DNA from: Bacteroidota bacterium
GTDB taxonomy: Bacteria > Bacteroidota > Bacteroidia > Chitinophagales > Chitinophagaceae
Length of the DNA: 64,000 nucleotides
Assembly: GCA_026391435.1 (NCBI GenBank)
Contig: JAPLEJ010000003.1
Location: 1 to 64,000 of the forward strand
Reading direction: 5' to 3'
In this document: one piece after another, positions 13,367 to 61,876 of the stretch
Numbering within the stretch: the stretch's first letter is position 1
How the letters are laid out: every line of letters begins with the position of its first letter
Made by a program: the position numbers and the translations under genes
Notes under the pieces: model-generated
Database searches by the model: none
What the model was told of the DNA's origin: nothing
What the model saw: only the letters and a program-made list of their open reading frames with translations

Positions 13367-14797
13367 TTAATTTACTCTCTGTATTGTAACCATTGCCGAA
13401 GGCGTTGCAGGCCTAGACGGTGATAATTGCGTACCCGTACCTGTAATACTTGTATTTATATTTTTAATAGTAAAATATATTTCAACATAGTCGTCAGTAC
13501 CAAGGTCTACAAAAAAAGAATTGATAATGGTGTTTTTTATTCCCGATCCCTGGATAGTATAAGTGTTATTGGTATTGGCAAAAGCGGCGCTGTTGCGACG
13601 AATCCATACACTAACCTCATCGTTGCCTACATCTGTTTTAATAAATTGTAATGCATATTTTACTATATAGATGCCTGCATTGGCCACTGTAATTCGGGCA
13701 GGAAGTCCACTGGTATTATTGACGATAATGATATTATTAGCAAAGCTGGTAAATCCAAATTTGACCGAAATGGCACTTAATACAGTTGTGATTTGTTTAG
13801 CAGTATCGTAAAAACTGCCATAGTCGTTTCGCAGTGGTGTATAATTTAAAGCAGTGATGATATCCTTGCTTGATAAGCTTCCTATGTTTATTTTATTATC
13901 GATTCTGTTGCTAAGACTAGTGGTGTCAATTGGTAAGATTTGACTTATTTTATTATAAATTTTAATCGTATCACTTGCATTTAGTTTTTGATTGATACGG
14001 TTACTTATAAAATTAGTATCAACTTTATTTAATTTTAAGTCAAGACGATTACTTAAAGTATTCGTATCTGTCTTATTGAGTTTATAATTTATGCGATTAC
14101 TAAGGCTAGTGGTATCTAATACTGGAATTTGACTTATTTTATTATATATTTTAAAGGTATCGATCGCATTTAGTTTTTGATTGATACGGTTGCTTAAATA
14201 TAGTGTGTCTATTTTTTTTAATTTCTCATTTAATAAAATGAGCGTCGCTTGTGAGGCAGGCTTAACGCTATCTGGTGTATTGTTTACTTTATCTAATGCG
14301 GCACTCATTTTAAAATCTTTTAGGTTATCAAAGCCAGTACCACCTTGATTTATACTAATTAATCCATTGATATTTTTAGCATCCACCTTATCGGCGTAAA
14401 AGGCAAATGGGACATAATTTATTTTTTGTGTACCAAGATTTATAAAATAAAAATCACCTGTGATATCTACTTCAACTTGTAAATATTTTTCTGAGCTAGC
14501 CCAATTTATATTATCAAAAGTTCCTATCGTTGCCATTTTTCTTTCTTCAGTACTCCCCACCACTATCGAAAAAAGTCCAATCACATTTGTAGTAACAGAT
14601 TTAATTTCTTGGTATTCGATATTCCCATTTAAGGAATCCGTTTTAATAGATAATCGAAGACTTATTATTTTATTAGCAATAACAAGCCCATTATTATTAC
14701 GAGCAATTCCTTGAAAATTAATTCCTTTATTATTTTGCGCATTTAAATACGTCAATAAAAAAGAGGCGAGCAATACTAAAAAAAATCTTTGTTTCAT
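13367..14797 (-). CDS. Repeat-stalk surface protein with C1q/TNF-like C-terminal head
   Basis: 476 residues with signal peptide (cut after LNA, residue 20). Region 25-140 is a beta domain widespread in Bacteroidota surface proteins (FQGIARNNNG...YVPFAFYADKV). Residues 200-305 hold about six copies of a 12-15-residue repeat of the type LSNRINQKLNKxDT, predicted to be helical or coiled coil. Residues 340-476 look like a C1q/TNF jelly-roll head (ARITVANAGIYIVKYALQF, then IYFTIKNIN). A trimeric stalk-and-head adhesin-like architecture is therefore likely. It follows the T9SS-tagged mini-protein at 14813 by 15 bases and probably shares its transcript. Name and ligand are unknown. Confidence 0.7.
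   Translation of the reverse strand: MKQRFFLVLLASFLLTYLNAQNNKGINFQGIARNNNGLVIANKIISLRLSIKTDSLNGNIEYQEIKSVTTNVIGLFSIVVGSTEERKMATIGTFDNINWASSEKYLQVEVDITGDFYFINLGTQKINYVPFAFYADKVDAKNINGLISINQGGTGFDNLKDFKMSAALDKVNNTPDSVKPASQATLILLNEKLKKIDTLYLSNRINQKLNAIDTFKIYNKISQIPVLDTTSLSNRINYKLNKTDTNTLSNRLDLKLNKVDTNFISNRINQKLNASDTIKIYNKISQILPIDTTSLSNRIDNKINIGSLSSKDIITALNYTPLRNDYGSFYDTAKQITTVLSAISVKFGFTSFANNIIIVNNTSGLPARITVANAGIYIVKYALQFIKTDVGNDEVSVWIRRNSAAFANTNNTYTIQGSGIKNTIINSFFVDLGTDDYVEIYFTIKNINTSITGTGTQLSPSRPATPSAMVTIQRVN
13911..14212 (-). repeat. Direct repeats inside the stalk-coding region, period 189 bp
   Basis: The block starting CTAAGACTAGTGGTGTC at 13911 recurs with few changes as CTAAGGCTAGTGGTATC at 14100, 189 bases (63 codons) further on, and both are followed by matching stretches including TTTAGTTTTTGATTGATACGG. 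The copies encode the IYNKISQI plus LSNRINQKLN repeat units of the surface protein, so recombination could change stalk length in steps of whole codons. Confidence 0.8.
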
Positions 14798-51973: not shown

Positions 51974-54049
51974 TTATTGAGGATGATAAATGCTTTCTGC
52001 ATTTTTTAATATTTCGTTTTTATCCAAAGTCATCTTTTTTAATTGTTGCGCTTGATATAAAGCACGTTGATCGGCGAAGTGTTTATTTCCTTTCACACTA
52101 CTTGCGCCAAAAGTATTTACAGTTTCAATCAAAGGTAAGTCGCCATTTTTAGGAAAACGAACCAACGAAATATAAGCATCTCCACTATTCATTTTTCTTT
52201 GTCCTGCTCCAAAAGGTTCAGATTGAACCGCTGCTAAAACATCTGGCATTCCACCTTGTGGCCAATTCTCATCACCTCTCACCAATCTTTGCATTTCACC
52301 TAATGTTACATTGAGTCGATTAAAATGTTTCATTAAATAATCGTACACATATTGATAAGTAGCCACTGCTTCGCTCATGCTTAACTTTTCATTTTTATGA
52401 TCACCCATTAGAGGAGGGATGGAATAGTAAGCTAAATTATAAATCAAGGCACCATTGCTTTCGGCTATCGCATTGTGGTCCCAATTTTTTAAACTAATGA
52501 TAAGTGGAGATAATAAAGGGTATTTTGTTTCATCCACCATGAATAAGGAATCTGCGGTATAACCATAAGGGTATAAAATTTTAGCAGGAAGTTGACGATC
52601 AAATTTGATTCGTTTTAAATCTTCGTAACTAATTTTATCAAGGCCATCAATTAAATCCTTTGCACGACGGCTTCGATTATTATGAGTTAATTCATAACCA
52701 TCATAAGCATCAAATAATTTAGGCGATAAATTTTCATTTTCGGCAGTAGCTAAAAAAGGGGAATGATTGGTATTATATAAGTATCCACTTTTTGGATTTA
52801 GATATTGAGGAAGTGCGTTTAATGGTTTAAAAGTAGTCCATAACGTGGCACGCGTATTACCAGGAACAGTGCTGTTCCAATGATAAGCAGAGTCGTTGTT
52901 TCGGTAAGGCATCTTTCCATTGGAAATATAAAATATGGTATCTTTTTGATCGGCATACACAATATTAAACATGGCTAAATGATTTTGCGTAAGCGCTGCT
53001 TTGAATTCAGTAAAATTTTGCGACTTATTCATGGCATACCATTGTTGTACTGCACCTGCATCCATTAAGGAAGGAAGACGCATCGAAAAGTATTGTCCAG
53101 AAGGCGTTTTAGCAGTAGGGCCATATATTGAAGTGTATGCTGTTTTATAAATTGGAATCGGAATACCTTTAATACTTAATTTAATTTTTCGAACTTCTAG
53201 TGGCAACCATTCTCCATCTACTTTATATTGATTTGGATGTTGCTGATCTGTTTCAAGTTGATACACATCTATTTTGTCTTGCAAGTTCACTGTATGCGCC
53301 CAAGCCAAATGGGGTGTGACACCATGAAAAATTAATGGGGCTCCGGGAAATAATCCTCCTAAAATATTCCAACCTTCTTCACTTTGTAAATGCGCCTCAT
53401 AAAAAGCAGTAGCGCCTTCGATAGGTTGATGGGCGTTAATCACTAACATATTTTCACCCGAAGCAGATTTGCTAGAATGGATGGCAAAGGAATTACTACC
53501 TTCTCCAGTAAAACCAGGTAATGCCGGGATGGTGCCATTTAAAATTTTAGGCAACGCTTTATCTACTCCACAAAATACAGCTACCGAAAAAACAGTTGCA
53601 GATAAATATTCTTCTATACTAATTGGGAAAACATGTTTATTGAGTACTTGATCAGGATGTGCTTTTGCATAAGCTTCCAATCCTAATAAATATCCTTTTA
53701 CTAATTGAATAAATTTTGGATCTAAACTATTTATTTGTGCTATCACAGTAGCTTTGGTGTTCAGCAATCCCGAGACATAATCTATAGTAGCTCCTTTTTT
53801 TCCTAAATAGGTGGCTAATTTTCCTTTACCTGTCAACATTAAAGTTTGAATGGTCGTAAAATCATCTTCTGAGTGTGCCCAAGCTAAACCATAAGCTACT
53901 TCGGGATCGGTAGGAGCAAATATATGTGGAACGCCAAACTGATCTCTTGCAATGGTGATTTTATCCGTTCTAATAATAGGGCTGCTTGTATTTTGCGCTA
54001 TAACGGAATTTGTCCATATGAGTAATAAGGAAATAAACAATGATCTCAT
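51974..54049 (-). CDS. Penicillin acylase family protein (Ntn hydrolase)
   Basis: 691 residues. Signal peptide cut near VIAQ (residue 19). An N-terminal segment resembling the alpha subunit, then GEGSNSFAI in which Gly184-Ser185 is the self-cleavage site and Ser185 becomes the nucleophile. The beta part contains VINAHQPI and later WAHTVNLQDKIDVYQL. Members hydrolyse N-acyl groups of penicillins, acyl-homoserine lactones or lipids. Quorum-quenching or scavenging is possible. A second member lies at 59642. Confidence 0.85.
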   Translation of the reverse strand: MRSLFISLLLIWTNSVIAQNTSSPIIRTDKITIARDQFGVPHIFAPTDPEVAYGLAWAHSEDDFTTIQTLMLTGKGKLATYLGKKGATIDYVSGLLNTKATVIAQINSLDPKFIQLVKGYLLGLEAYAKAHPDQVLNKHVFPISIEEYLSATVFSVAVFCGVDKALPKILNGTIPALPGFTGEGSNSFAIHSSKSASGENMLVINAHQPIEGATAFYEAHLQSEEGWNILGGLFPGAPLIFHGVTPHLAWAHTVNLQDKIDVYQLETDQQHPNQYKVDGEWLPLEVRKIKLSIKGIPIPIYKTAYTSIYGPTAKTPSGQYFSMRLPSLMDAGAVQQWYAMNKSQNFTEFKAALTQNHLAMFNIVYADQKDTIFYISNGKMPYRNNDSAYHWNSTVPGNTRATLWTTFKPLNALPQYLNPKSGYLYNTNHSPFLATAENENLSPKLFDAYDGYELTHNNRSRRAKDLIDGLDKISYEDLKRIKFDRQLPAKILYPYGYTADSLFMVDETKYPLLSPLIISLKNWDHNAIAESNGALIYNLAYYSIPPLMGDHKNEKLSMSEAVATYQYVYDYLMKHFNRLNVTLGEMQRLVRGDENWPQGGMPDVLAAVQSEPFGAGQRKMNSGDAYISLVRFPKNGDLPLIETVNTFGASSVKGNKHFADQRALYQAQQLKKMTLDKNEILKNAESIYHPQ

Positions 54050-54154: not shown

Positions 54155-54496
54155 ATGATAGAGTCTAAAAGGTTCGGATCTAAAAAGGCATTGGTAGATA
54201 TTGATGAAACGATTTGCTTTTATAGTGAAAAGAGAGTGTACGAATTAGCAGAACCTAATTTTGAAAACATTGCAAAAATCAACCAATTGTTTGAGCAAGG
54301 TTGGCATATTACCTACTGGACAGGAAGAGGAGAAAGTTCGAAGCGGGATTTGCGCGCACTCACCCTGGAGCAATTAAATAAATGGGGTTGTAAATTTAAT
54401 GATTTAATTACAGGTTACTGCCCCAACGGAAGTCCTACCAAACCTAATTTTGATTTAGTGATAGATGATAAAGCCAAAAGAATTGAGGAGCTTTAA
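54155..54496 (+). CDS. Small HAD-superfamily phosphatase-like protein
   Basis: 113 residues from ATG 54155. HAD motif I DIDET (15-19), motif II T/GRG at WTGRGE (55-60), Lys96 and motif III IDDKA with Asp104-Asp105. There is only a minimal cap, as in capsule-locus or polynucleotide-type small HAD phosphatases. Likely cytoplasmic phosphatase for a sugar or nucleotide phosphate. Its stop shares TTAA with the opposing membrane-protein gene. Confidence 0.75.
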   Translation: MIESKRFGSKKALVDIDETICFYSEKRVYELAEPNFENIAKINQLFEQGWHITYWTGRGESSKRDLRALTLEQLNKWGCKFNDLITGYCPNGSPTKPNFDLVIDDKAKRIEEL

Positions 54497-55206
54497 TGCA
54501 CCAAAGCTTGTTTATTTTTTTTAGCAAAAGGCAGGTAAAATAACCAAAAATGAAGCAAGCCTACTAATTCTAATACAATTAGATAATAAGGCCATTCGCC
54601 AATGACAAGTGGATTATTCACTTCGGGTTTAGCAGATAAAAACATATAATTAGCGCCCACCGCATAATTAACCAATCCAACTCCAACTGCTACAATTTGA
54701 GTGTAACCAAATATCCAAATCCAAGATTTAGGGCGTGGTCTAAAATCTAAATGCAAGATCATGTAAGCAATTACTAATAACATACCAGCATGATCAATAA
54801 AGTAAGCGTAAAAATTATAGCCATCCATGCCAAGGGTAAATTCTGGTGTAAGTAAGGAATGAATACCTCCTGCTAAGCCCCAATAGTATACGCATTCAGC
54901 CAACCATTGTTTGTAGTTCAGCAATAAAGCAATACACATAAAATAACTGATACTACATAAATGAGCAGGAAGATTTTGTTTTACATTCCAATACCCTTCT
55001 TGGTAGTTATAAAAATTCTCAAATAAGAAATTGATTGAAAAAAACAATGCTATAAAAGTAGCGTAGGTTTTAACATTTACTTTTTTGAAATGAAGGGGAA
55101 CTCGAACCACAATAGTGATGATTAAAATAATCATAACGATACATTCCCACCAAAACGGAGAGAAGGGTTCGATAAAAGCAGCTGGATGAATTTTTCCCAT
55201 AAGCAA
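54493..55206 (-). CDS. TIGR02206/YwaF-family membrane protein
   Basis: 237 residues with about seven hydrophobic helices. YwaF-family pattern: PFWWE near the start, LPAHLCSISYFMCIALLL and YYWGLAGGIHSLLTPE in the middle, and a membrane-embedded YMILH segment. No function is assigned to the family. Starts after a 48-base gap from the terminator of the DUF1080 gene. Confidence 0.78.
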   Translation of the reverse strand: MLMGKIHPAAFIEPFSPFWWECIVMIILIITIVVRVPLHFKKVNVKTYATFIALFFSINFLFENFYNYQEGYWNVKQNLPAHLCSISYFMCIALLLNYKQWLAECVYYWGLAGGIHSLLTPEFTLGMDGYNFYAYFIDHAGMLLVIAYMILHLDFRPRPKSWIWIFGYTQIVAVGVGLVNYAVGANYMFLSAKPEVNNPLVIGEWPYYLIVLELVGLLHFWLFYLPFAKKNKQALVH

Positions 55207-55323: not shown

Positions 55324-56091
55324 TTATAATTCTCTAATCCAAATGTTTCTATAACTAATAGGGTTGCCATCATCGCCATGATCTTGAAAATAGAAGGGTA
55401 GTTTGCTATCATGTTTTTTATACACAGGTATTGCCGAATAATCGGTAGGGCCTAATATAGAAACATTGTTTTGTACCAATACACCATTATGTAAAACAGT
55501 TACTCGGCCTGGAGAACCAAGTTCACCATTGTCTTTAAATACAGGTGCTGTAAAAATGATATCATAAGATTGCCACTCGCCTGGTTTACGACTTGCATTT
55601 ACTAAAGGAGGATATTGTTTATAAACAGCAGCGGCTTGACCATTGGAGTAAGTGACATTATCATAGGAGTCTAAAACTTGAATCTCATATTTGCCCATTA
55701 AGTATACGCCACTATTTCCTCTTGCTTGACCGCTATTTTTTACGATGGAAGGTGTTCTAAATTCAACATGCAATTGACAATTGCCAAAAGCTTTTTTAGT
55801 GTATAAGTCACCGGCGCCTTTCACATCTGTCAAAGAACCATCTGCATCCAACTTCCATTTAACTGGAGTACCATCTAATTTTTGAAAAGCAGATAAATCT
55901 TTACCATTAAATAATATAATCGCATCCGAAGGTGCATCTGTATTAGTAGACCCTGCCGAAATAATAGGTACGGGTACCCAAGATTCTAAACTTTCAGGGG
56001 TTACCTTCCCAGTTTCTTGTTTTGTTTTTTGAGCGTTTGCATGAATACTAAAAATACAAATCGCCATAAAAGCCCATATACTTTTTTTCAT
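55324..56091 (-). CDS. Exported DUF1080 (3-keto-disaccharide hydrolase-like) protein
   Basis: 255 residues from the Met at 56091; the frame is open to 56181, but that part has no leader. Signal peptide cut after ANAQ (residue 20). DUF1080 concanavalin-like fold: IILFNGKDLSAFQKLDG, LYTKKAFGNCQLHVEFRTP, GNSGVYLMGKYEIQVLDS and the end FQDHGDDGNPISYRNIWIRE. Such proteins bind or hydrolyse glycosides and may serve surface glycan metabolism. Follows the ATP-grasp-SET gene after 76 bases, with its own terminator. Confidence 0.83.
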   Translation of the reverse strand: MKKSIWAFMAICIFSIHANAQKTKQETGKVTPESLESWVPVPIISAGSTNTDAPSDAIILFNGKDLSAFQKLDGTPVKWKLDADGSLTDVKGAGDLYTKKAFGNCQLHVEFRTPSIVKNSGQARGNSGVYLMGKYEIQVLDSYDNVTYSNGQAAAVYKQYPPLVNASRKPGEWQSYDIIFTAPVFKDNGELGSPGRVTVLHNGVLVQNNVSILGPTDYSAIPVYKKHDSKLPFYFQDHGDDGNPISYRNIWIREL

Positions 56092-56167
56092 ATAATAATT
56101 TGATTGTTTATTAAAGCAATTTAAGGAAAAGCAAGCTGCGAAACAATTTAATGTAGGTAATTTATGC

Positions 56168-57607
56168 TCAAAACTGAACATTCCCTTTTATCAAACCCCT
56201 ACACTTAGGGTCGCCACAACTACATTGGAATGGTTCCATGGTATGGTCTAAAAAATCAGCATAATCCAAAGTAAGTTCTTCTCCCTTTTTAATGTCTTTT
56301 TTGGCGATGACATTTAAACCCTTATAACCGCAGTTGGCATCACAGTGGTGATTTTGCGGGGCCCATTCTTCGGGTTGCAAATCCCATAATATATATACTT
56401 CCTTACCTATTGGATAAGCGTAGCGTCTAAAGTTTAATTTCTCACGCTCATCCCAATTTTCATCCATATATTTTTTGGTGATGATGCGTTGTGCTTTTTC
56501 CTCCCCTTTAAATAGTAGCGTGTTTTTAGGAAGATCATATTTTGCATAAATCCCATATCCCGAAATAGCATTCCCTTTAATTAAAAATAATTTTTCCTTT
56601 TTTTGATAACGCGCTATGCCTTCAATAATAATACGCTCCAAAAATCCTCTTTGCCCTGCAGCATCATGCATTAAAATATAATCTGCCGAACCCTCTAATC
56701 CTTTTTCGTAAAAAACAGAACAAGTAAAATTAATTTCTAAAAAATAGATATCGCCTTTTGCGTCCATTCTAAAATCCATACGAGCATAACCAACACCACT
56801 AAAAGACATAAATATTTGTTCGCCGATGGATTGAAGCTGCTTTGCTAAATTTATATCTTCAACAGGAATATTTGCATTAGGATGTAATTCGGATGTTTTT
56901 AATGCATAGGTTTTAAAAGCAAAACCTTCGGGAAAAATATATTCAACAGGTTTAAAACTTGTACAAGTTTTACCATCTGCATTGCCACATACTAATACTG
57001 TAAACTCACGGCCTTCGATATACTCCTCCACTAAAGCCGATCCAAATTCGGCTACTATTTTATTTACTTTTGTTATTAATTCTTTTTGATTGGTCACTTT
57101 GGAAGCATCATCCACACCTAAGCTATCACCTGCTTTAGCAGGTTTTACAAATAAAGGGAAATTTAAATTTCCAGGTAGTAAGGATAGGTCGTCCACTGAT
57201 TCAATTAATACATGTGCTGGTGTTTTTACATCTTCACAAAAAGCCAAATACTTCATGATGGTTTTTTGTGGATCGTACAAATTCACAGTTGGACCAGTAT
57301 AAGGAAGCCCTAATAAATCTAAACTCATAATGACATCAATGGAGGGGACTTTCCATTCTAAATAACCTTCACATAAATTAATATAGATGTCGTAATTTTT
57401 TTCCTTTAACTGTTTAAGTTGTTGGTAGGTGGTTAATTTATTTAAAAAGACATGATCTATATGCGCTTCAGGCATAATAGCTGATAGGTTTCTTTTAGGA
57501 TCATAATATTGGTAATCAACACCAGAGGTTGAATAATCAGGCTGTAAAACGCAAATTTTTAAATTGGTAAAACTAGCTGTATCATTTAATAGGGGGAGGT
57601 GGCGCAT
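56168..57607 (-). CDS. D-Ala-D-Ala-ligase-like ATP-grasp fused to a C-terminal SET methyltransferase
   Basis: 479 residues from Met 57607, four bases after the upstream stop; a start at 57640 would add eleven residues. Residues 15-325: Ddl-like ATP-grasp with INLCEG (about 76-81), ATP-binding FVKPAKAGDSLG (Lys155) and metal ligands Glu291 and Asn293 in LEINFTC. Residues 348-459: SET domain with GYGIYAK (350-356), NHHCDAN (419-425) and EELTLDYAD (444-451, Tyr449). Residues 462-470: post-SET cysteines C462, C464 and C469 in CSCGDPKCRG. A ligase joined to a protein-lysine methyltransferase is predicted; the substrate is unknown. Partner gene is the ATP-grasp at 57612. Confidence 0.85.
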   Translation of the reverse strand: MRHLPLLNDTASFTNLKICVLQPDYSTSGVDYQYYDPKRNLSAIMPEAHIDHVFLNKLTTYQQLKQLKEKNYDIYINLCEGYLEWKVPSIDVIMSLDLLGLPYTGPTVNLYDPQKTIMKYLAFCEDVKTPAHVLIESVDDLSLLPGNLNFPLFVKPAKAGDSLGVDDASKVTNQKELITKVNKIVAEFGSALVEEYIEGREFTVLVCGNADGKTCTSFKPVEYIFPEGFAFKTYALKTSELHPNANIPVEDINLAKQLQSIGEQIFMSFSGVGYARMDFRMDAKGDIYFLEINFTCSVFYEKGLEGSADYILMHDAAGQRGFLERIIIEGIARYQKKEKLFLIKGNAISGYGIYAKYDLPKNTLLFKGEEKAQRIITKKYMDENWDEREKLNFRRYAYPIGKEVYILWDLQPEEWAPQNHHCDANCGYKGLNVIAKKDIKKGEELTLDYADFLDHTMEPFQCSCGDPKCRGLIKGNVQF

Positions 57608-57611
57608 AATT

Positions 57612-58724
57612 TTATTTTTTTCGTCTAGCGAATGCGTCATTGATAATATGAATCACTAATTCGGTAAAGCTCTGATTGGCAAATCTTAGAATGGCACCAA
57701 TAGAAGTGTAGTTCTCATCTTCACTGATACCACATTGTGCATTTACTTCGAGTACATAAGGCTTACCGGTTTTGGCGTCAACTCGAACATCTACTCTAGT
57801 GTATCCAGTACCATTGACAGCAGCATACGCGTCCCATGAAATTTGTTGAATAGCTAATTTAGTATCACTTGGGCTAGCTTGATATTGATAAAAATTTTCG
57901 TCAGCAGGCATGGGTGTTTCATCTTCATAAATTTCCCAAAGTCGATCAAAGGATAATATTTTTTCATTTTCAGGAAGAGAGGAATGAAAAACTCTTTCTA
58001 CAGGCGGATAAATTTTAGCATACTCCGGCTGATGATAAGTTCCTACAATCATGACGGTGTATTCGGGCCCTTGTACAAAAGATTCTGCTAAAATACCATC
58101 TGTTGCAAGATCCCATCCTCTATAGCCTTCAAACATTTTATCTAATTGTAATTGCAAGTCAGTAGGGTTATCAACTACATTTTTAATTCCCAAACCTAAG
58201 CTGCCCCCAGATACGGCTGGCTTTACGATTAAAGGACTCCCTAAATTTTTGATGAGGTCCTTTGGTTTAACCTCTCCATTTATTTTAATGGCTTCCCATT
58301 TTGGAGTAGGGACACCCGCTTCATCAAAAGCCTTCTTCATTGGAATTTTTGAAGTGGTGATGTCATAAAAATAATCATCCGCTCCTGTGTAGACCAATTG
58401 TTTTTCCTCTAATGCTTTGATTACCGATAATCCTGGTGCGCCATTTATTTCATCGCCATCACATAAATTTAATACAACAGGGAAAAATAATCCCTTTTGT
58501 CTTTCATTTGCAATCTCTTGAATGACAGTTTTATAAGTTTCTAATGAAACAGGTTGCCATTGCCAAGGCAATTCAAGTTCAGCAAATACGCGTGTATATT
58601 CCTCGATACTTTGACTAAAATCATAGTAGTAAGATAAATTGGGGTCAGGATTATCCAAGGCGGGAGCAAGCACCCAAACCTTCAAATGACCAATTGGCAC
58701 AAAGGGATAAAATAGGTTACGCAA
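57612..58724 (-). CDS. Stand-alone D-Ala-D-Ala-ligase-like ATP-grasp protein
   Basis: 370 residues. N-lobe with VVLNLCDGDEINGAPGLS (84-101, the Ddl NxxDG-type block), Lys168 in IVKPAVSGGSLGLG and C-lobe YTRVDVRVDAKTG plus YVLEVNAQCGIS with metal ligands Glu327 and Asn329. True Ddl enzymes have PGxT where this has CGIS, so it may join other amino acids or peptides. It is the first gene of the pair and overlaps or abuts the start of the ATP-grasp-SET gene. No murF or ddl neighbour, so cell-wall synthesis is unlikely. Confidence 0.83.
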   Translation of the reverse strand: MRNLFYPFVPIGHLKVWVLAPALDNPDPNLSYYYDFSQSIEEYTRVFAELELPWQWQPVSLETYKTVIQEIANERQKGLFFPVVLNLCDGDEINGAPGLSVIKALEEKQLVYTGADDYFYDITTSKIPMKKAFDEAGVPTPKWEAIKINGEVKPKDLIKNLGSPLIVKPAVSGGSLGLGIKNVVDNPTDLQLQLDKMFEGYRGWDLATDGILAESFVQGPEYTVMIVGTYHQPEYAKIYPPVERVFHSSLPENEKILSFDRLWEIYEDETPMPADENFYQYQASPSDTKLAIQQISWDAYAAVNGTGYTRVDVRVDAKTGKPYVLEVNAQCGISEDENYTSIGAILRFANQSFTELVIHIINDAFARRKK

Positions 58725-58982: not shown

Positions 58983-59702
58983 ATGCAAAGCCAAGTAATC
59001 ATATGTGATCAACAAACAGTGTATGCGATAGGATGTGGGTCACTTCTTCATGATCATCCTAAGTTTAATGGGTATTGTATCATCCATACCCTACAGGAAT
59101 TGAATGAAATGATGTCTATAGATGATCCCAAAACTGAATTCCCGCAAGTTTTAGTACTGGATAGTGGCATGTTGAACTTTGCTCAATCACAAACTATTAT
59201 AACAATTCAATCCATTAAAAAGCGTATACCTATTATGATATTATTTAATGAAGAAGATGATTTTCACTTGTATAACTTAATCGATATTGGTTTTTCGGTC
59301 ATTGTTTCAAGGCAGATTTCTGAGCAGGATTGGGTAAAAGCGTTGTTAATGGCAGAACAAGACAAGGTATATTTTTGCGCTAACATTGCTGATAAGGTTT
59401 TTGCCTTAGTGAATCAAATGGATAAAATCAAGCAAATGGAAAGGATGCGCCAACTGACTATTTATGATAAATATATTTTAGTAAGAATATGCGAGGAAGC
59501 ATCTAGTAAACAAATAGCATATGAAGTAGGGCATAGTAAACGCACCATCGAAGGACATCGGACTAAGTTAATGCAACAGTTTGATGTTAAAAATGTAGCA
59601 GGCTTAGTTAAAATTACTTTTTTAACTAAGTTGTACGATCATTATTTAATGAACCCCGGCTTATATGATGTTACTTTATGTGCTAAAACATCGGCCTTGT
59701 AA
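58983..59702 (+). CDS. LuxR-type response regulator with degenerate receiver domain
   Basis: 239 residues. Receiver-like alpha/beta domain (1-125) with a candidate phospho-acceptor Asp60 in VLDSG; the paired acidic residues and conserved lysine of true receivers are not evident, so phosphorylation is uncertain. Residues 155-215 are a GerE/LuxR helix-turn-helix (EEASSKQIAYEVGHSKRTIE and HRTKLMQQFDVKNVAGLV). No histidine kinase is adjacent. Divergent from the ATP-grasp pair, which it may control. Its last 61 bases overlap the end of the opposing acylase gene. Confidence 0.8.
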   Translation: MQSQVIICDQQTVYAIGCGSLLHDHPKFNGYCIIHTLQELNEMMSIDDPKTEFPQVLVLDSGMLNFAQSQTIITIQSIKKRIPIMILFNEEDDFHLYNLIDIGFSVIVSRQISEQDWVKALLMAEQDKVYFCANIADKVFALVNQMDKIKQMERMRQLTIYDKYILVRICEEASSKQIAYEVGHSKRTIEGHRTKLMQQFDVKNVAGLVKITFLTKLYDHYLMNPGLYDVTLCAKTSAL

Positions 59703-61876
59703 AAATGAATGGTTTTAAATTCTCCATTAATATACATTTGGGCTTGATCAGTGAAATGACTTGAGCTTGCAAATCTACTTTGCCCGCCAGTAATGATGGT
59801 TTTAGCTACTAATTTTTTACCAAATGAAACTGCGGCTATAAAGCTATTGCCAGTATAACCATATCGTTTTTTAGTATGATCATAGCGCTTACTTTCAAAC
59901 GAAGGAAGGGATCCCCATCTGGAAGAAGCTTGCGCTACAGGCCAGCTGAAAGCATCATCATTCATCAAAGCACCTTCTTCTACGCGTTGATACCTATTGA
60001 TGTCCCCCCAAGGGATTTCCCATGTTCCATAAAGCTTTTCAAGTTGTTCTAAAGTCGAGTTTAATAGGCTTAATTTTTTTTCAATGGGTACTTCATTTAC
60101 CATTCGCTCATACTTTTTTATTATTTGAGTACCTTCTTCCTCGGTGATAGCTGGGGGTATTTCTAAACTCCACTTTGTTGCCCACTCAATGGCTAGGGAA
60201 GTAGCCACTGAATTTATTGCAGCATCATGATCCCAATCCGATAAATATTGAATGGCTTTTTTAAGTGAGGGGCTTAGGTTCATTTTTTTTGCGTCCTCTA
60301 AAAAACTAGGAAGTAAAATATCAAAGGCAGATAAGTGTCGATTGTATCCAAGCTGAATCAACTCGTCTAAATCAATTTTTCCTATACGCTCTAATAATTT
60401 TACTGCAGTAATTCCTCGGCCATTTTCACCATCAGGTGCCATATAGTAAGGGTACTTACTGGCTTTTGGACTTTGATTGCCCGCCATGGTAAAGGGAGTA
60501 GAATTACAATTTTGTAACCATCCATTAGCTGGATTAATACTTTGTACAATTTCATTTAATGGATGTACGCCTTGCCAATCCGTATTACTGGTACTTCCTT
60601 CGACTGGCTTACTATAATCATATTGAGTATTGCGCTTGGGCATAAAATTTCCATGCCAATAAGCAATATTACCGTCTGCATCTGCATATACTGTGTTGTT
60701 ACTATTATTGGCTAATAATGATAATGCAGTTTGGTACGCTCTTAAATTTTTTGATTTAGTTCTAGTCCAACATTCTATTAATGCATTTAGTGAACGATTG
60801 TTTTCTTTCAAGCTCAACCACTTTCCTTGGCGACTACCCATGATTGGGCCATGCCCAGTTTTGTAAGTTGTGAAATATTTAATGGGTTGTTGTCCATTAT
60901 CATTGTAACGAATAGGAATATTTCTTTGTTTCATTGGCAATATATTATTATCCAACTCATAAAACCATTCACTATTTTTTTCTGTTACTTTTTCTAAAAA
61001 CACATCTGCGACATCTGCATAACTACTAGTATGCATCCATCCGCAATTTTCATTGAAGCCCTGATAGATAAACATTTGCCCCCATGTTACAGCACCATAC
61101 ACATTTAAACCCTGCTCACTCACCATGTGCATTTCGGATCTAAAATAAAATGGAACATGAGGATTAATATATAATAAGGAAGCACCATTTTTACTATGTA
61201 TAGGAGCAATAGCAAATCCATTTGAGCCTTTTAGCGTTTTCTCCTCCATATCAAAAGGCGCAGTTTTTTCCACTATCAATGAATTTGTATTTATGAGAGA
61301 TGCCCTATTTTTAGAGGTCCCGTAAAATTGTTTTACATCCATCATTTTAATACCACCAGCTCTGGTAGGAGAAACACTGCCATCTGTCCACATTAAATGA
61401 TACCATGGTTTAAAATAGTGGATTGCTTTAGGCTTTACTTCTGGATGTTTGTATAAATAAAAATTGATACCATCGGCGTGCGCAATAAGTAATTCTTTAA
61501 ACCAAATAGGACTATTATTAAAATCTTTTATAGCATCACTGCTGTCTTGAATTAATCGCATCATTAAGTCATCATAAATAGCAATTTCTCCTTTTACTTC
61601 GGCAGTCCTACCCAGCATTTCTAAAAAATTCATTTCAATTTGTTCAAAATTTTCCTCGCATTGTGCATACATTAATCCAAAAACAGCATCTGCATCTGTT
61701 TTCCCATATATATGAGGAATATCCCATTCGTCTTTTATAATTGTAGTTTGATGCGCGTGTTTTTCACATCTTGCTTTATCAAGCGAAGTCCATTGTTGCG
61801 CATTTAATTCACGATAACTAAAAATATTACTAATAAAAATAATTAATACAGCTATATTCAATATACTGGTTTTCAT
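59642..61876 (-). CDS. Penicillin acylase family protein (Ntn hydrolase), second copy
   Basis: 744 residues. Signal peptide cut near LNAQ (residue 27). Processing site GSNGFAI with Gly217-Ser218; Ser218 is the nucleophile after autocleavage. Beta part has LLYINPHVPFYFRSEMH and ENCGWMHTSSYADVADVF. It shares only the family layout with the 51974 protein, so it is a distant paralogue. Acyl-homoserine-lactone or other amide acylation states are possible substrates. Its 3' end overlaps the LuxR-type gene by 61 bases. Confidence 0.85.
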   Translation of the reverse strand: MKTSILNIAVLIIFISNIFSYRELNAQQWTSLDKARCEKHAHQTTIIKDEWDIPHIYGKTDADAVFGLMYAQCEENFEQIEMNFLEMLGRTAEVKGEIAIYDDLMMRLIQDSSDAIKDFNNSPIWFKELLIAHADGINFYLYKHPEVKPKAIHYFKPWYHLMWTDGSVSPTRAGGIKMMDVKQFYGTSKNRASLINTNSLIVEKTAPFDMEEKTLKGSNGFAIAPIHSKNGASLLYINPHVPFYFRSEMHMVSEQGLNVYGAVTWGQMFIYQGFNENCGWMHTSSYADVADVFLEKVTEKNSEWFYELDNNILPMKQRNIPIRYNDNGQQPIKYFTTYKTGHGPIMGSRQGKWLSLKENNRSLNALIECWTRTKSKNLRAYQTALSLLANNSNNTVYADADGNIAYWHGNFMPKRNTQYDYSKPVEGSTSNTDWQGVHPLNEIVQSINPANGWLQNCNSTPFTMAGNQSPKASKYPYYMAPDGENGRGITAVKLLERIGKIDLDELIQLGYNRHLSAFDILLPSFLEDAKKMNLSPSLKKAIQYLSDWDHDAAINSVATSLAIEWATKWSLEIPPAITEEEGTQIIKKYERMVNEVPIEKKLSLLNSTLEQLEKLYGTWEIPWGDINRYQRVEEGALMNDDAFSWPVAQASSRWGSLPSFESKRYDHTKKRYGYTGNSFIAAVSFGKKLVAKTIITGGQSRFASSSHFTDQAQMYINGEFKTIHFYKADVLAHKVTSYKPGFIK

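Follow-up and report, generated by a model that had tools for sequence, protein, structure and literature searches.

An ATP-grasp–SET fusion and its neighbouring ligase in Chitinophagaceae: a possible core of a ribosome-independent pathway

In bacilysin-type pathways an ATP-grasp ligase joins free amino acids and the dipeptide product is exported; we know of no SET enzymes in these pathways, which serve here as a model of how the genes described below might work. Relatives of the D-Ala-D-Ala ligase (Ddl), such as VanA, serve peptidoglycan. SET domains are best known for protein-lysine methylation; a SET enzyme that acts on a free amino acid is BurB of Burkholderia thailandensis, a lone methionine S-methyltransferase of 172 amino acids (aa) that converts free methionine to S-methylmethionine (PMC12542666). 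The nearest described fusion in the literature searched is the eukaryotic TTLL12, whose SET-like and ATP-grasp-like domains share a single chain, according to the available part of PMC3520985. Here we consider two adjacent genes, S and P, from a stretch of 64,000 nucleotides (nt) referred to as the window (positions 1–64,000 of contig JAPLEJ010000003.1, assembly GCA_026391435.1; Bacteroidota, Chitinophagaceae). S encodes an ATP-grasp ligase fused to a SET domain and P a second ATP-grasp ligase; in many genomes of the family they are accompanied by a stand-alone SET gene, denoted U. Our best explanation, held tentatively, is that S and P supply the ligases at the heart of a compact pathway independent of the ribosome, whose product would be a small methylated peptide or conjugate that may be exported.

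The S gene (56168..57640, minus strand, as are all features of S and P below) is one intact open reading frame (ORF) of 490 aa that overlaps P by 29 nt. Pfam finds in it both Dala_Dala_lig_C (79.1 bits) and SET (42.0 bits, residues 361–460, the gathering cut-off being 22.4). The ATP-grasp part, with a Ddl-like predicted fold, spans residues 27–345 (56606..57562), and the SET and post-SET part residues 350–490 (56171..56593), the latter containing the GYG, NHHCDAN, ELTLDY and CxCx4C motifs. The P gene (57612..58724) starts with TTG and encodes a Ddl-like ligase of 370 aa with a Dala_Dala_lig_C score of 59.8 bits; its ATP-grasp assignment comes from sequence comparison. The first-pass annotation, made from the letters of the window, had claimed just such a pair of adjacent Ddl-like genes, one of them fused to a complete SET domain with these motifs (the last given as CxC...C). 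The ORFs, the Pfam matches and the key columns, kept in 25 and 33 aligned sequences, bear this out.

The positions R287, D289, E302 and N304 of the ligase part, which we take to be the ATP/Mg and catalytic positions, show no variation across 33 aligned S proteins from several families. Two of them, E302 and N304, belong together with the equally invariant C307 (33/33 rows) to the EINFTC motif (residues 302–307; 56720..56737). In the SET part, N430, H431, C433, N436, Y460, C473, C475 and C480 are invariant in an alignment of 25 sequences; in the 33-row alignment, which includes other families, all of these remain invariant except N436, which is nearly so (90% or more). That is, NHxC, the catalytic-site Tyr and the post-SET CxCx4C are all present and unvaried in the 33 S rows.

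Two doubts had been raised about the fusion, that it could be an artefact of the gene model and that homologues could usually lack the catalytic residues. Neither was confirmed: the fused frame recurs in 84 of 294 genomes of the window's bacterial family, which rules out the artefact, and both halves retain their motifs and catalytic residues in the aligned relatives. The matched stretch of S has no stop codon in 75 of the 84 genomes and one or two in the other nine; in the three of these nine that were checked (G048, G057, G245) the S ORF is intact. Long open frames in the same three genomes, considered as a single P–S fusion, were resolved as two separate ORFs, and in G021 P and S read as two ORFs 3 nt apart. 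The ratio of nonsynonymous to synonymous substitution rates (dN/dS), computed against five relatives from the window's own clade, is 0.02–0.11 for P and likewise for the two halves of S; four of the five pairs have saturated dS, and for SET one value was not computable. Both halves of S, and also P, look functional.

The predicted structure of S has a mean predicted local distance difference test (pLDDT) score of 82.3, and its ligase part aligns in VIA-align to Ddl 8evx_B with Z 27.5 and a root-mean-square deviation (rmsd) of 3.0 over 284 residues. The fold-match lists are filled by the larger ligase domain, and the SET part is not among the matches listed. Structure prediction, which the first-pass annotation had proposed for both sites, thus speaks for the ligase half, while the SET fold rests on sequence comparison; its absence from the fold lists is no counter-evidence. 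In TTLL12, as far as the available part of its description goes, the SET-like part is N-terminal, the critical residues of both the SET-like and TTL-like parts are gone and no catalysis was seen in vitro, whereas S keeps both residue sets (PMC3520985). The literature searched, which is of partial coverage (few subscription journals), yielded no report of SET and ATP-grasp fused in a bacterium, so an earlier mention is possible; nor did it yield a characterised relative, in agreement with the earlier remark that the fusion has no characterised function.

Judged by family scores, residues and phylogeny, neither P nor S is a D-Ala-D-Ala ligase. Against the NCBIfam Ddl family TIGR01205 (cut-off 245.65 bits) S scores 82.9 and P 74.4, both below, and a far better Ddl-domain match is found elsewhere in the window genome, at C17, with 174 bits, where S reaches 81 and P 60. 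The Pro of the Ddl motif EVNTxPG is replaced by Cys, Cys307 in S (33/33) and C331 in P (25/25); the latter lies in the EVNAQC motif (residues 326–331; 57732..57749), where E326 and N328 are invariant in the same 25 rows. The EVNxxC variants do, as suggested at first pass, set these proteins apart from true ligases. The KY pair of Ddl aligns with K248-T249 in S. The substrate-site stretches read GDSLG, K248-T249 and EINFTCS in S, and GGSLG and EVNAQCG in P, and do not carry the Ddl substrate residues, which are presumably the first Ser of GSSVG, the Tyr of KY and the Pro-Gly after EVN; the first Ser of the GSSVG site is kept in two distant S rows, L159 and L163. In the ligase tree S, P and Ddl form three separate groups (supports 88/82, 100/99 and 100/100, with long branches flagged), Ddl being represented by four proteins from other genomes, with the window genome's own Ddl and two other references not included. 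What is shared with Ddl and VanA is the ATP-grasp fold in S and the R, D, E and N residues in both S and P, whereas the scores below the family cut-offs, the invariant Cys, the K-T pair of S and the separate tree groups distinguish them.

The same comparison bears on a cell-envelope variant, in which the product of P and S would be an altered dipeptide or side chain destined for peptidoglycan or some other polymer of the wall. The Ddl fold of the ATP-grasp part of S would fit, as would the fact that the best ligase family matches are to Ddl-type families. However, the NCBIfam scores are far under the cut-off, the recognition residues differ, a far better Ddl match exists elsewhere in the genome, and no wall gene was recognised in the conserved neighbour clusters (those of six or more loci), inspected by eye with no wall-gene scan. 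We consider this variant quite unlikely.

Across the phylum, S is found at E 1e-60 in 17 of 395 genomes, 12 of them from outside the family, in the families denoted f18, f24, f28 and f54. SET domains are uncommon in bacteria: out of 14 control genomes Pfam SET was present in one, that of the archaeon Methanosarcina acetivorans, and six survey genomes that were checked have three to six matches each. Neighbourhoods were studied at 40 of the 84 family loci, those with longer contigs, and a scan of named genomes covered the best 80 of 379 S relatives. Among these 80, the nearest named relatives come mainly from metagenomes, the assemblies bearing the titles Chitinophagaceae, Sediminibacterium or Bacteroidetes, and the source bacterium of the window is related to Sediminibacterium. 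U, P and S are present in two isolates, Terrimonas pollutisoli H1YJ31 (L141) and Sediminibacterium soli WSJ-3 (L144), and in L144 the ABC gene described below is matched as well.

P is upstream of S in all 40 family loci, at a distance of −86 to 163 nt in 38 of them and of 1,015 and 1,708 nt in the other two. It also accompanies S in all 80 best-scoring named loci, a set that overlaps the 40. Outside the family, P is beside S in none of nine loci (taken from 12), and the whole genome of G405, from another family, contains no P-like match. The constant pairing of the two genes, raised as a possibility at first pass, therefore holds in the family loci studied and fails beyond the family. Since loci outside the family show S without adjacent P, S is the constant part and P looks like a family-level addition.

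The U gene encodes a stand-alone SET protein of about 165 aa and is absent from the window. Two U proteins match Pfam SET with 37.3 and 36.3 bits (cut-off 22.4), and the residues N93, H94, C96, Y125, C138, C140 and C145 are invariant in 20 U rows. In the SET tree, which has long branches and was used for grouping only, S, U and a third SET protein described below form separate groups. A match to the U profile is present in 34 of the 40 family loci; in 33 it immediately precedes P, and in one (L066) it comes after an ABC (ATP-binding cassette) gene. A 168-aa ORF upstream in L061, counted as U by position, was dropped after the profile check; in L067 (genome G065) an upstream U was found by six-frame search only and is additional to the 34. 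In family f18, U is upstream of S in five of six loci (BLAST). Across families, the stand-alone SET gene is a more widely shared partner of S than P is, the window's clade being without it.

Counted over the 294 family genomes, U is present in 79: both S and U occur in 77 genomes, S only in seven, U only in two and neither in 208 (Fisher test, 9e-60, not corrected for the relatedness of genomes). In G133, one of the two U-only genomes, P runs off the contig end where S is expected, and in G139, one of the seven S-only genomes, the cluster is at the contig start; the window genome is another of the seven. Judging from coordinates, U does not adjoin S in ten of the 77 genomes having both. In G021 the two genes are about 1.7 megabases (Mb) apart on the same contig of 3.15 Mb, so that U is kept though unlinked, and broken contigs may account for the separation in G190 and G263. 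The unlinked U lies among housekeeping genes such as leuS in eight of the ten, according to translations read by eye with no family search. In G216, a genome of the same genus as the window, all four genes (U, P, S and the ABC gene) are present. A search of the window genome for U returned the fused SET of S (2.7e-9) and two weak matches (0.004 and 0.018), the latter rejected as other small SET genes in open frames of 134 and 140 aa. Besides S, this genome contains two further small SET-domain genes, at G000:C52:34375-34671 and G000:C15:1703-2017.

By sequence and predicted fold, the closest solved relative of U is BurB, ahead of the histone methyltransferases. The U profile matches BurB with 9.4e-19, the next structure being MLL1 with 1.9e-9. 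With a U model (L111, pLDDT 91.1), Foldseek puts BurB first at 7.6e-10 and the first non-BurB row at 3.0e-6, and VIA-align yields Z 14.7 for BurB (rmsd 3.4, 129 residues aligned) and Z 11.3 for the next match, ASH1L (rmsd 2.6, 120 aligned). The likeness to BurB (PDB 9l4t, 9l4v) extends to the YxSTE stretch, the post-SET cysteines and the positions of Thr73 and Tyr124, both mapping to columns invariant in 27 U rows in an alignment read by eye. In the accessible text on BurB (PMC12542666), Met is bound through main-chain contacts including Thr73; Tyr124Ala nearly abolishes the activity, Tyr124Phe keeps over 60% of it, and the authors do not call Tyr124 catalytic. Unlike BurB, which is a lone enzyme, U travels with ATP-grasp ligases. 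By homology to BurB, methylation of free methionine is a first guess for the activity of U, and it is mainly because U resembles BurB that small substrates are considered here.

The SET domain of S is fused to a ligase, in contrast to BurB, and does not clearly favour BurB over KMT2D as its closer relative. By profile the two matches are near-equal, 1.3e-13 for BurB and 2.7e-12 for KMT2D; by single sequence KMT2D (2.2e-7) is ahead of BurB (4.9e-6). We regard the evidence for the substrate class of this domain as neutral. The first-pass annotation had started from SET domains modifying protein lysines; as the closest solved relative of U methylates free methionine, this is not the best default here.

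It corresponds to a protein-modification scheme, in which ATP-grasp would attach a peptide or a single amino acid to the C-terminus or a side chain of a protein, and SET would methylate lysines of the tag or of the protein. The matches of the fused SET to KMT2D and the preserved NHxC, Tyr and post-SET motifs of S would be in line with it, and so would the combination of a SET-like and an ATP-grasp TTL-like domain in TTLL12, as described in the available part of PMC3520985. On the other hand, U is nearer in sequence and fold to BurB than to lysine methyltransferases, the linkage to ABC genes would suggest a small exported product, and no conserved substrate-protein gene was recognised by eye in the neighbour clusters of at least six loci. 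Protein modification is, in our opinion, unlikely.

At 18 of the 40 family loci, S is followed on its own strand by the ABC gene, which is of the ABC_membrane_3 type, as typed by Pfam in one member. In five of the six f18 loci, S is followed by an ABC exporter of about 590 aa and then by a third SET gene (118–120 aa), one of each being typed by Pfam; the sixth locus is cut by the end of its contig. The f18 loci L160, L161, L162, L165 and L166 have up to three SET domains per cluster. No precursor-peptide ORF was obvious in 16 gaps between S and the ABC gene or in the 220 nt upstream of U, the nucleotides being read by eye, untranslated. If anything, this speaks against graspetide-like maturation, in which an ATP-grasp enzyme would modify a gene-encoded precursor and SET would methylate it. 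ATP-grasp enzymes are known to mature graspetides, a class of ribosomal peptides, but the ATP-grasp parts seen here are Ddl-like; in the available part of a graspetide survey (PMC8939145) none of the five terms looked for is present. We consider this scheme very improbable, and rank the alternatives with protein-lysine methylation or tagging first, then the wall variant, then the ribosomal peptide. An anti-phage defence system was also considered and set aside, as S, P and one U matched no family of the PADLOC defence models at E 0.1.

The simplest account of a gene set with a pair of ligases, a pair of SET enzymes, an ABC protein at some loci and no precursor peptide evident to the eye is a ribosome-independent pathway. 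The order of the steps, the substrates and the product that we infer are as follows. U would methylate a free amino acid or another small substrate with S-adenosylmethionine; judging from BurB, the sulfur of methionine is the first guess. A carboxylate would be turned into an acyl-phosphate by the ATP-grasp domains and then linked to an amine. The SET part of S may methylate the same substrate or the product in cis, and the product would exit via the ABC protein. In the window's clade, where U and the ABC gene were not found near P and S, the pathway may be a shortened version, or the partners may be encoded elsewhere. A bolder form of this proposal, which we find rather doubtful, is a new class of ribosome-independent pathways in Bacteroidota, with U methylating an amino acid, possibly to the sulfonium S-methylmethionine, and S and P building it into a methylated peptide, perhaps one with a sulfonium, that is exported. 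A recurrent bacterial operon in which BurB-like and ligase-fused SET domains are coupled to ATP-grasp ligases would bring SET enzymes into peptide biosynthesis and hint at a product of Bacteroidota not seen so far, many of the bacteria concerned being from lakes or soil by their record titles.

Several observations weigh against the proposed pathway. Neither U nor the ABC gene was found near P and S in any of the 38 loci of the nearest clade (L071–L108, some with short DNA), and full-length U was not found in the window genome, which is 84% complete, or in G261, listed as 100% complete. Fewer than half of the family loci have the ABC gene, and its single typed member shows no Pfam ATP-binding domain and is therefore not a complete exporter. 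S itself is missing from the same-genus genomes G087 and G164, and it occurs with neither U nor P nearby in L158, L159 and L163. As the genomes are related, the p value for the co-occurrence of S and U overstates the evidence. The near-equality of BurB and KMT2D for the fused SET, with KMT2D ahead by single sequence, is a further point. Finally, the U proteins of f18 have Ser at the column aligned with BurB Thr73. The Km values of BurB are millimolar (PMC12542666), which makes homology to BurB a loose guide.

Of the other neighbours, two genes of the penicillin-amidase family, PvdQ-like with scores under the NCBIfam cut-off, are situated at 51974–54049 and 59642–61876, both on the minus strand, a few kilobases on either side of P and S. 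As members of the pathway they were set aside, since no neighbour cluster of at least six loci contains window genes beyond S and P. In L031, a locus from the same genus, S is surrounded by ORFs of comparable size. Immediately downstream of S in the window, at 55324–56181, is a 3-keto-disaccharide hydrolase gene with no link to S, and further on, at 54493–55206 on the minus strand, a TMEM164-family integral membrane protein (NCBIfam TMEM164-related acyltransferase); in L031 a TMEM164-like protein, alike by eye, follows S.

At L159:5041-13099, S is near genes encoding an N-formylglutamate amidohydrolase, a MATCAP-type protein, a glutathione-synthetase-like ATP-grasp protein and a gamma-glutamyltranspeptidase. 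These neighbours hint at peptide metabolism; the nearest are 441 and 501 nt from S, and they are not used as support. Elsewhere in the window, the minus-strand gene at 13367–14797 encodes a 476-aa protein with imperfect repeats of the LSNRINxKLN type, possibly surface or fibre-like.

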